A stretch of DNA of 11,683 bases from Acidimicrobiia bacterium. GTDB lineage: Bacteria > Actinomycetota > Acidimicrobiia > Acidimicrobiales > Ilumatobacteraceae. Positions 2,160-4,161 of this stretch are shown piece after piece (positions within the stretch are counted from its first letter, which is position 1; each line of letters begins with the position of its first letter). The notes beneath the pieces were generated by a model. It was not told where the DNA came from. It worked only from the letters and a program-made list of their open reading frames with translations, and ran no database searches. Location: positions 1-11,683 of the forward strand of contig JAUHYJ010000053.1 of the NCBI GenBank assembly GCA_030425785.1, read 5' to 3'. The position numbers were made by a program, and so were the translations under genes.

Positions 2160-3149
2160 TCAGAGACGGTCGGCGGGGTAGTCGGCGTAGCTGGCCTTGA
2201 ACACGCCGGAGTGGAGCAGCACCCGTGCCGCCACCTCGCCGTCGCTCGCCCGGCGCACGACGGTCTCGACCCAGTGCGACTCGACCTGTCGGCTCTGGCC
2301 GACCGCGAGTACCTCGCGTTCGAGCAGGTAGTCCTCACCGACGAACAGCGGCCCGTCGACCGCGCGCACCTGCAGGTCGATGAACAGCCCGACCGCCGGG
2401 CCGCGCACCGGGAGCGACGCCCCCGCCTGATGCGTGAGCACGCTGTACATCTCGAACGGCAGGATCGGCCGCCCCCACGGGTTGTCGTCGGTCGAGTACC
2501 AGGCGCTCGGTTCGGTGATCTTGTCGAGCTTCTGGGCGAGTGAGAACGGGTAGAGGTGCCCGTTCGGGGTCGTCGCGTCGACCGACACGGGGTGGTCGAG
2601 CGAGCTGCGCGCGCCGACCTCGACCCGGTCGACGATGAACAGCTCGCCGACGTCGCGCTGGCGCATCCGGGCGAGCCGCTCGTCCAACTCGGTGACCGCG
2701 TCGCCGCCGACCGAGATCGTCCCGGTCAGCACCGGCGTGCCGCCGGACGTGTCGTCCGTCATGCCATCCGACGAGTCATCCGGCGAGTCGGCTGATTTGG
2801 CGGCGTCGATGCGAGCGAGCTCGTCGCCGACCCGGGTCGCGGCCGCGACCACGGATTCGCCCTCGACGACCATCGTCTGGAAGTGGGCGCTGATGCAGCC
2901 CTCGGCGAACCAGCGGTCGCCGAACAGTGCGTGGGCGAGCGGGTCGAACTGGCTGAAGTGCGTCGGGCCCTCGATCGGCGCCCCGGCCAACCCGAGCTTG
3001 GCGGCCTCGGCATCGTCGTGCACGCTGGCGTGGCCGTCGTACTCCTGGTCGGCGAGCATCTGCGCCGGCGCCCGCACCGGCCCGCGCAGGGTGTCGCCGT
3101 CACGCGTGAGGGGGGTGTCGGGGAACGGGTGGGTCACGCCGTCCAGCAT
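2160..3149 (-). CDS. Double-hotdog (MaoC-like/thioesterase-like) protein
   Basis: The 329-residue protein looks like a two-hotdog chain. The first half has HASVHDDAEAAKLGLAGAPIEGPTHFSQF (residues 40-68), resembling the hydratase-motif region of MaoC-like dehydratases, with HFQTMVVEGESV as a hotdog strand pair. The second half (about 185-325) has PFEMYSVLTHQAGASLP, then VGLFIDLQVRAVDGPLFVGEDYLLEREVLAVGQ, then HWVETVVRRASDGEVAARVLLHSGVFK, a hotdog sheet. MaoC-type proteins act on acyl-CoA or acyl carriers; no specific substrate is supported. Residues 117-139 are a polar, acidic low-complexity linker inserted between the halves. The start is uncertain. ATG at 3149 has a GAGGGGG tract almost touching it; an in-frame GTG at 3137 would sit about 12-13 nt after the same tract. 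It is transcribed away from the nested repeat element at 3165-3294. Confidence 0.72.
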   Translation of the reverse strand: MLDGVTHPFPDTPLTRDGDTLRGPVRAPAQMLADQEYDGHASVHDDAEAAKLGLAGAPIEGPTHFSQFDPLAHALFGDRWFAEGCISAHFQTMVVEGESVVAAATRVGDELARIDAAKSADSPDDSSDGMTDDTSGGTPVLTGTISVGGDAVTELDERLARMRQRDVGELFIVDRVEVGARSSLDHPVSVDATTPNGHLYPFSLAQKLDKITEPSAWYSTDDNPWGRPILPFEMYSVLTHQAGASLPVRGPAVGLFIDLQVRAVDGPLFVGEDYLLEREVLAVGQSRQVESHWVETVVRRASDGEVAARVLLHSGVFKASYADYPADRL

Positions 3150-3164
3150 GCCCCCTCACCCCGC

Positions 3165-3294
3165 CCCCGTTCCGGTCGGAGTATCCGCCCCCGGATCTCG
3201 TTCTGGTCTGAGTTTCGGTGCCCATGAGGACCAGAAGTCAGACCAGAACGGACGCCTGGACGGCGCGGGCGCCAGGACTCCGACCGGAACGGGG
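3165..3294. repeat. Nested inverted-repeat element with four copies of a 14-bp motif
   Basis: The outer arms ccccgttccggtcggagt (3165-3182) and its exact reverse complement (3277-3294) form an 18-bp perfect inverted repeat. Inside, 3199-3211 and 3238-3250 form a 13-bp perfect inverted repeat (cgttctggtctga). Two small hairpins fill the remaining gaps: atccg/cggat (3183-3187 with 3192-3196) and cctgg/ccagg (3255-3259 with 3272-3276). Folded, the 130 bp make a four-way, cloverleaf-like junction. All long arms are variants of one motif, GTTCYGGTCKGA, giving two forward and two reverse copies, plus a partial fifth at 3224-3237. The element fills the space between divergent genes. Its right arm covers where a -35 region of the SMP-30 gene would lie. 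It could be an operator, a REPIN/MITE-like mobile repeat or a structured RNA; the sequence does not decide. Confidence 0.85.
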
Positions 3295-3302
3295 ATGCTT
3301 TG

Positions 3303-3308
3303 TAGGGT
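3303..3308 (+). promoter_or_regulatory. -10 hexamer of a leaderless SMP-30 promoter
   Basis: TAGGGT lies 7 nt before the ATG at 3316 and there is no Shine-Dalgarno site. The expected -35 position (about 3280-3286) falls inside the right arm of the nested repeat, so any protein or cruciform at that arm would directly affect this promoter. Confidence 0.45.
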
Positions 3309-3315
3309 CGCCGCC

Positions 3316-4161
3316 ATGACCTGGGAGTTGCTCGTCGACGGCATCGACTTCGCAGAGGGGCCGCGCTGGCACGAAGGTCGGCTCTGGTACTCGGACTTCC
3401 ACCAGCGGACGATCTCCTCGGTCGGCATCGACGGCGACCGACGGATCGAGCTCGGCGACCTCGCTGATCAGCCGTCCGGGCTGGGGTGGATGCCCGACGG
3501 TTCGTTGCTGGCGGTGTTCATGACGACACGCAGGGTCATGCGGCAGTCGGGCACAGGCGACCTCGTCGAGCACGCCGATCTGTCCGGCATCGCCACCTGG
3601 CACTGCAACGACATGGTCGTCGACGCCGCCGGCAACGCCTACGTCGGCAACTTCGGGTTCGACCTCGAGGCGCGGGCGAGCTACGCGCCCGCCGATCTCG
3701 CACTCGTCCGCGCCGACGGGTCGGTCGAGGTCGCGGCGACCGAGCTGCGCTTCCCCAACGGGTCGGTGATCACGCCGGACGGCTCGACCCTGATCGTCGG
3801 CCAGTCGTTCGGCGGGAACTACGTCGCGTTCACGATCGCCGACGATGCGACGCTCCACGACCGGCGCGAGTGGGCTGCGATCGAGGGCACCGCCCCGGAC
3901 GGATGCGCGCTGGACGCCGCCGGTGCCATCTGGTTCGCCGACGCGCTCGGATCACAGGTCGTGCGGGTCGAGGAGGGCGGCCGGGTCACCGACCGGCTGG
4001 CGACGCCGGCACCGGTGTTCGCGTGCATGCTCGGCGGCGACGACGGTCGCACGCTGTTCGCACTGTGCGCCCCCGGTTCGGGCGCCCAGGCCACCGCCGG
4101 CAAGGCCGCCGGAGCGATCTTCACCACCCGGGTCGAGCAGCCCCATGCCGGGCGGCCGTGA
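3316..4161 (+). CDS. SMP-30/gluconolactonase/LRE-like beta-propeller hydrolase
   Basis: The 281-residue protein opens with the family's FAEGPRWHEGRLWYSDFHQRTI block and repeats propeller-blade motifs such as PDGSLLAVF, VDAAGNAYVGNFGFD and LDAAGAIWFADALG. Expected metal ligands are present by position: Glu14 (AEGP), Asn148 (FPNGS) and Asp195 (APDGC); Asn98 in HCNDM fits the substrate-side asparagine. Family members hydrolyse sugar lactones or similar esters with Ca2+, Zn2+ or Mg2+; the natural substrate is not evident. No signal peptide is seen, so it is probably cytoplasmic. The ATG at 3316 is supported by homology-like starting residues and by TAGGGT 7 nt upstream. Its TGA overlaps the GTG of the exonuclease gene by 4 bp, so the two are likely made from one mRNA. 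Confidence 0.9.
   Translation: MTWELLVDGIDFAEGPRWHEGRLWYSDFHQRTISSVGIDGDRRIELGDLADQPSGLGWMPDGSLLAVFMTTRRVMRQSGTGDLVEHADLSGIATWHCNDMVVDAAGNAYVGNFGFDLEARASYAPADLALVRADGSVEVAATELRFPNGSVITPDGSTLIVGQSFGGNYVAFTIADDATLHDRREWAAIEGTAPDGCALDAAGAIWFADALGSQVVRVEEGGRVTDRLATPAPVFACMLGGDDGRTLFALCAPGSGAQATAGKAAGAIFTTRVEQPHAGRP

Follow-up and report, generated by a model that had tools for sequence, protein, structure and literature searches.

The window (the whole stretch of DNA analysed, 11,683 nucleotides from an Acidimicrobiia bacterium of the Ilumatobacteraceae) contains a palindromic element that is probably a nested, non-autonomous copy of a repeat family, here family A, belonging to a system that resembles REP/RAYT but uses an unrelated enzyme, by which we infer it to have been mobilised. 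The main result is an association of palindromes with genes for AbiEi-Vsr-like nucleases (AbiEi-nucleases), which the first-pass annotation of this DNA had not foreseen. Palindromes flanking such genes suggest a so far undescribed route by which small repeats spread.

The element sits between two divergent open reading frames (2160–3149 on the minus strand and 3316–4161 on the plus strand). As had been annotated, an 18-bp perfect inverted repeat (3165–3182 with 3277–3294) encloses a 13-bp perfect one (3199–3211 with 3238–3250). All four arms had been read as one 14-bp motif in the order forward, forward, reverse, reverse; the order holds, but the part common to all arms is 12 bp, GTTCYGGTCKGA, starting at 3169(+), 3200(+), 3238(−) and 3279(−). 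The outer left arm (3165–3182, +) carries copy 1 at 3169–3180, the inner left arm (3199–3211, +) copy 2 at 3200–3211, the inner right arm (3238–3250, −) copy 3 at 3238–3249 and the outer right arm (3277–3294, −) copy 4 at 3279–3290. Copies 2 and 3 bound a 50-bp core palindrome (12 + 26 + 12; 3200–3249), which is the unit counted 21 times in the genome. The predicted DNA fold of the element is a cloverleaf with small lateral hairpins on the left (ATCCG-CCCC-CGGAT, 3183–3196) and on the right (CCTGG...CCAGG, 3255–3276); both had been proposed for the gaps between the arms, but the left one is absent from the RNA minimum-energy fold. Folding as DNA and as RNA, the latter a check suggested in the annotation, gave a structure far more stable than shuffles (z = −8.7 and −8.1, respectively; none of 200 shuffled sequences reached this stability in either case), which would hold for any such palindrome. 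The neighbouring genes had been named hotdog and SMP-30: the right one is SMP-30/gluconolactonase-like (PF08450, 1.6e-35), but the hotdog label was not borne out for the left one, a 329-aa reading frame with no Pfam match at E ≤ 0.001 (best Pfam entry DUF7158, E 0.035). The right arm had been predicted to cover the −35 of the SMP-30 promoter; a sigma-70 consensus scan of 3050–3420 gave no site, and none was expected. On the plus strand, the right outer arm coincides with a terminator-like stem that has a weak run of T (3278–3294; 1 match, 0.1 expected).

The genome that holds the window (G000; 4.42 Mb, 857 contigs, 83% complete) contains numerous partial copies of the element detectable by BLASTN. 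Using a core pattern of two 12-bp arms separated by exactly 26 bases, with up to 3 mismatches, and the backward pattern as a control, we found 21 cores on 16 contigs, compared to 0 for the control. Family A, of which the window element is one copy, thus consists of dispersed, extragenic short palindromes in the sense applied to REP/REPIN sequences; its members are GTTCTGGTCGGA palindromes of 50 bp, and the consensus of 18 cores starts GTTCTGGTCGG. Nine of the 16 loci are nested, with two or three arms per side, three repeat in tandem every 62 bp, and four hold a single core, one of these (C804) at a contig end. In a motif-by-motif scan, the distance between neighbouring forward and reverse motifs was 38 in 20 of 22 cases, with the remaining two (26 and 14) involving a weak motif; this constancy is partly built in, because cores were selected at a fixed spacing. 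Motifs on the same strand were separated by 31 (10 cases), 41 (6), 42 (2), 30 (2), 22 (1) and 29 (1), and five further distances (12 twice, 16, 19 and 47) each include a motif carrying 1 or 2 mismatches. Outer motif copies therefore lie ~31 or 41 bp further out, which corresponds to whole helix turns, and selection by a protein that contacts a single face of the helix would be expected to produce steps of ~10 bp. As part of our best explanation, the family A unit is likely to be a 50-bp dyad of two 12-bp putative protein-recognition motifs placed 38 bp start to start. Several copies are located a few bases past stop codons; of 17 loci, nine could be typed by a rough GC3 rule, six lying between co-directional and three between convergent genes.

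In 60 relatives, the core pattern matched three times in G003 and once each in G035, G037, G041 and G052, while the control pattern gave single matches in G003, G004 and G026; these counts are near control level, and family A as a family was not found in the 60 genomes. A search for the left gene covered ten genomes of the genus. In two congeners (G006 and G008) the divergent pair is retained and its matched ends are 104 and 118 bp apart, respectively; the intergenic space lacks any motif copy with up to 2 mismatches, and its perfect inverted repeats do not exceed 6 bp. As the element is missing between the same divergent genes in these two congeners, it is an insertion and not a conserved operator, and, judged by sequence comparison, the window element is a lineage-private insertion. 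Another congener (G009) keeps the pair 619 bp apart with no motif between the genes; in G001 and G005 the right gene is on the other side, and in G001 a single motif, with 1 mismatch, is present upstream of the left one; the G004 locus is cut by a contig end; and the left gene had no match in G002, G003 or G007. Both models favoured in the first-pass annotation, a mobile repeat and an operator controlling both genes, came with tests of their own. The search for further genomic copies supports the former, with 21 cores (control 0), a nested order at 9 of 16 loci and an empty site in two congeners, and the latter was rejected, since G006 and G008 retain the gene pair without the element.

The link between family A and a nuclease runs through G003, whose contig is sequence-identical to CALFRK010000103.1 from an uncultured Ilumatobacter. 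Here, two core-pattern matches (2 and 3 mismatches), 1027 bp apart, bracket a single gene of 304 aa, and one of these palindromes has 20 consecutive nucleotides identical to a family A copy. We tie the G003 palindromes to family A because they flank the gene on both sides and share these 20 bases, the count of weak matches not being significant; dispersed copies of the core pattern in G003 amount to one weak 3-mismatch match, no more than in the control (1). The encoded protein and its kin have an N-terminal AbiEi winged helix, in some members an AbiEi C-terminal domain, and a DUF559/MTES_1575 nuclease domain, with several of these matches lying under the Pfam curated cut-offs. PADLOC AbiEi models match residues 4–186 of one nuclease at 5e-30, and a profile of 31 nucleases matched 3HRL (2e-9) and the mobile intron protein 3R3P (2.7e-4), with weak matches to Vsr (0.07–0.3) and AbiGI (0.05). 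In the C-terminal domain, D236, E247 and H254 are nearly invariant and D263 is invariant; these four we take to be the residues of the EDxHD motif. The predicted structure of one such nuclease (L142) has a mean pLDDT of 91.4. A search with one member counted 798 homologues at E ≤ 0.001, of which 120 were listed, and such genes presently carry the labels 'DUF559', 'very-short-patch-repair endonuclease', 'AbiEi antitoxin domain' or hypothetical; NCBIfam gave no family at E ≤ 0.01 for four nucleases and none above cut-off for that of G003. Plasmid carriage of the G003 nuclease was also considered and rejected, as 72,556 plasmid records yielded one weak match with 27% identity over 60% of the query.

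We then compared the flanks, 230 bp on each side, of 70 AbiEi-nuclease genes from 30 genomes of one order, with a threshold score of 15. The sample comprised 30 loci from the first homologue search and 40 taken in E-value order among the matches listed, skipping two partial matches (G020:C29 and G035:C472) and two loci at contig starts (G049:C26 and G024:C287); one locus (L122) was dropped for its short right flank, leaving 69 genes. Eighteen of the first 30 loci had been inspected before the statistic was fixed, and the threshold was read from the score table. Matching flanks (score ≥ 15) were found at 39 of 69 genes, in 24 of the 30 genomes, compared to 1 of 58 for windows 600 bp further out, 17 of 2000 for cross-genome pairs and 0 of 69 with the right flank reversed. 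Leaving out the discovery locus in G003 gave 38 of 68, and among loci fetched once the idea existed the figure was 20 of 39. At a score of 20, matches remained at 29 of 69 genes, against 1 of 58 far windows and 1 of 2000 cross-genome pairs. No matching flanks were detected at 30 of the 69 genes, which include all nine in G042, G048 and G049. Of 18 loci examined in a further scan, drawn from named records, 8 had flank matches at 15 or above, and several of these 8 are also part of the main survey.

A palindrome of 32–66 bp (median 48), a range that includes the 50-bp core of family A, was called at 31 of the 39 flank matches and none at the other 8. The upstream matched stretch ends a median of 59 bp before the nuclease start codon, and the downstream one starts a median of 9 bp past the stop. 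Palindrome sequences mostly differ from locus to locus, and the correlation of arm similarity with protein identity across 30 loci was weak (r = 0.157; 4 of 2000 permutations as high). In Ilumatobacter nonamiensis YM16-303 (L181), the right copy spans 52 bp as a palindrome whose 21-bp arms are perfect, and the left copy has the arm CGTTTGCGTTGTACTTCTGGT in common with it. By eye, three tandem palindromes stand on either side of one nuclease gene in G016 (L123), and one contig of Desertimonas flava is identical to a G016 contig over the compared stretch. G003 and G008 carry a cassette at the same location, with nucleases that are 80% identical and palindromes that differ between the two genomes but agree inside each; in G009, two genes neighbouring this cassette are present and the cassette is absent. 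As a separate observation, 22 of 69 nuclease genes (L083–L152) have TGT[GC]A[GC]A in the 70 bp upstream of them, compared to 6 of 69 windows further out. The motif may belong to a promoter or operator, and 9 of 14 TGTCAC sites are located 28–30 bp 5' of the start codon.

At least two families, one in G000 and one in G038, combine a nuclease gene with dispersed cognate copies in one genome. A nuclease gene of G000 (C155:1388–2326, minus strand) was found with a family-built profile (A1), the PF04480 profile alone giving E 0.288 and the G003 protein as query giving no nuclease match in this genome at E ≤ 0.001. It is bracketed by a second palindrome, family B, whose arms contain GCGTGAGGTYTCTGCGCA, so that flanking of an AbiEi-nuclease gene by matching palindromes is seen for a family A-like sequence in G003 and for family B in G000. 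Matching of half-sites revealed 12 family B palindromes in G000, of which two adjoin the gene and the remaining 10 are on other contigs; the control gave 0. The C155 nuclease and the family B copies together indicate that G000 holds the proposed system, with a palindrome other than that of the window. Among eight congeners, family B half-sites numbered 14 in G006, one in each of three and none in four; several of the 14 in G006, which are within 2 mismatches and family B-like, carry a GTTGTTGCGCA variant, and this genome has one weak nuclease match. The G038 genome, assembled as one contig, has 16 places, besides the flanks of one nuclease gene, that match the left array of this gene at E < 1e-3; the same search in four other genomes gave nothing at that level, with one weaker match each in G016 (0.003) and G021 (0.03). 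A second, weak A1 match in G000 (C278, E 3.5e-4) has no family A motif nearby, and profile and protein searches of this 83% complete assembly found no nuclease adjoining any family A copy.

In the mechanism that we propose, two nuclease molecules would bind each palindrome through their AbiEi winged helices, and the Vsr/EDxHD-like domain would cut or nick at the palindrome or at a target. Repair could then copy the palindrome, or the whole palindrome-gene-palindrome cassette, elsewhere, and nested arms would be extra half-sites gained in helical register. The nuclease belonging to family A itself would be in the unassembled part of G000 or have been lost, and autoregulation through the upstream copy may coexist with mobility. 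According to PMC7319586, a pair of 23-bp inverted repeats with 3 bp between them, 49 bp in total, is bound cooperatively by AbiEi, which bends the DNA; by analogy, since AbiEi sites span 49 bp in all, palindromes of ~50 bp would fit two AbiEi molecules. We consider it an evenly balanced question whether AbiEi-Vsr nucleases form a widespread selfish or domesticated class in Acidimicrobiia-like actinobacteria, each with its own ~50-bp palindrome and cassette, seeding solo, nested and tandem copies by double-strand-break repair, and thus a RAYT-independent origin of palindromic repeats.

An alternative that we regard as unlikely is that the palindromes are operators bound by an AbiEi-type repressor, with the dispersed copies being a regulon or chromosome-organising sites and the nuclease domain being incidental. 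The helical spacing of the motifs and the position of the upstream match, ending a median of 59 bp before the nuclease start, fit such a role, as does the precedent of AbiEi and Rv2827c, which autoregulate through paired 23-bp inverted repeats in their own promoters, with Rv2827c binding four such repeats within ~131 bp (both from PMC7319586). However, the match on the other side begins 3' of the nuclease stop codon, and therefore is not that gene's operator; furthermore, the window copy is missing from the same divergent pair in G006 and G008, and three of the nine typed family A loci lie between convergent genes. A function as a structured RNA, a terminator or an mRNA 3'-end stabiliser, which had been a third option in the annotation, is very improbable, despite the strong predicted fold, the copies that follow stop codons at a distance of a few bases and the one terminator-like match at 3278–3294. 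Across 22 dyad pairs in 18 of the 21 cores (leaving out the near-identical tandem copies C484:3402, C812:2962 and C812:3024), pairing was 76.5%, compared to 75.6% in shuffles, and the covariation score was reached by 132 of 500 shuffles, with change counts likewise inside the shuffle range. The arms of the window copy pair with each other perfectly, two inner pairs (columns 20–31 and 22–29) show changes on both sides, and slid versions of the structure pair at 21–47%, as expected of any palindrome. Since pairing is no higher than in shuffles, the arms are conserved as sequence and not as pairing; their fixed sequence and spacing are also unneeded for termination. Rfam, searched with the window and eight copies, gave nothing at the gathering score, two matches with E < 1 (mir-2329 and CDKN2B-AS_2) both lying below it, and we rejected a structured RNA on these grounds.

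It is also decidedly unlikely that a HUH (RAYT) or DDE transposase moved the element as a classical REPIN/MITE, with the AbiEi-nuclease link restricted to other families. The annotated model of a REPIN/MITE-like mobile repeat did hold in form, with dispersal, nesting and an empty site, and the nested and tandem, species-private orders are like those of REPIN/BIME; where it failed is the REPIN/RAYT route. One Y1/RAYT-like gene was found in G000 (PF01797, contig C98; L059 1459–2322; L156), which reaches 46.6 of the 80 bits of NCBIfam REP_Tyr_transpos and is thus under the cut-off. The 2.9-kb locus has 11 motif matches at exactly 3 mismatches, compared to 3.3 expected (0 of 200 shuffles reach 11), but these are scattered over the locus and none is closer; the contig carries no family A motif within 1 mismatch, and the flanks of the gene do not match each other. 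With this single Y1 gene and no close motif copy near it, RAYT was rejected as the mobiliser, and no Y1/HUH gene bracketed by family A was met in the 83% complete G000 assembly. The matching palindromes of G003 bracket a nuclease rather than a transposase, and family A arms have neither the GTAG nor the CGTC end tag described in PMC3733652. The C-terminal part of the Y1 gene seems to run on in another frame. A phage origin was rejected separately, as none of 50,697 phage records matched the element at E ≤ 0.01.

Bacteria commonly carry palindromic repeats, for which a HUH transposase (RAYT) is the usual candidate maker. MITEs such as ERIC, RUP and Correia are short, non-autonomous, palindromic and intergenic, and family A resembles them in having inverted repeats. 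The nuclease-palindrome system that we favour shares with REP/REPIN/BIME and RAYT, as described in PMC2817692 and PMC3733652, dispersed species-private palindromes that occur singly, in pairs and in tandem, flanking of a cognate DNA-processing gene by the same repeats, and co-divergence of enzyme and repeats, which is weak here. It differs in its enzyme, an AbiEi-Vsr-like nuclease and not a HUH tyrosine transposase; in its unit, a palindrome of 32–66 bp (median 48, n = 31); in having CGTC inside the core and not terminal, unlike the REP sequences in PMC3733652; and in the ~12 to 21 copies counted in three families, compared to the tens to hundreds given for REP in PMC2817692. Like AbiE type IV toxin-antitoxin proteins (AbiEi and Rv2827c), the nucleases have a winged helix and, in some members, an AbiEi C-terminal domain, and their palindromes recall the paired inverted-repeat sites of ~49 bp in AbiEi and Rv2827c promoters (PMC7319586); unlike in AbiE, the AbiEi portion shares a polypeptide with a nuclease domain, and palindromes occur on both sides of the gene and scattered elsewhere. 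The C-terminal domain profile matches 3HRL, 3R3P and weakly Vsr, as for EDxHD/Vsr-like homing endonucleases and Vsr, but the gene is free-standing, with an AbiEi DNA-binding half and bracketing palindromes. Among the matches listed in open-licence literature, titles and abstract openings contained no link between AbiEi-nuclease genes and palindromic repeats, and nothing in this literature joined any two of AbiEi, DUF559, MTES1575 and 'repetitive extragenic palindrom'. If true, our interpretation would add a second, unrelated enzyme class with cognate palindromes, a candidate maker for orphan repeats such as, perhaps, the CGTC repeats that are apparently without a dedicated transposase according to PMC3733652, and would suggest a role for a large gene group known only as DUF559, AbiEi-domain or hypothetical.

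Other repeats were seen beside ccr in two of the congeners. In G002 (L164, ~2840–2920), a long nested palindrome, GTGACGGA...TCCGTCAC, whose sequence is unlike that of the window element, lies just past the ccr stop codon, and in G006 (L161, ~2815–2880), a short unit (CCGGAATCGG.AGAGGCC...) is present three times in tandem immediately 3' of ccr.
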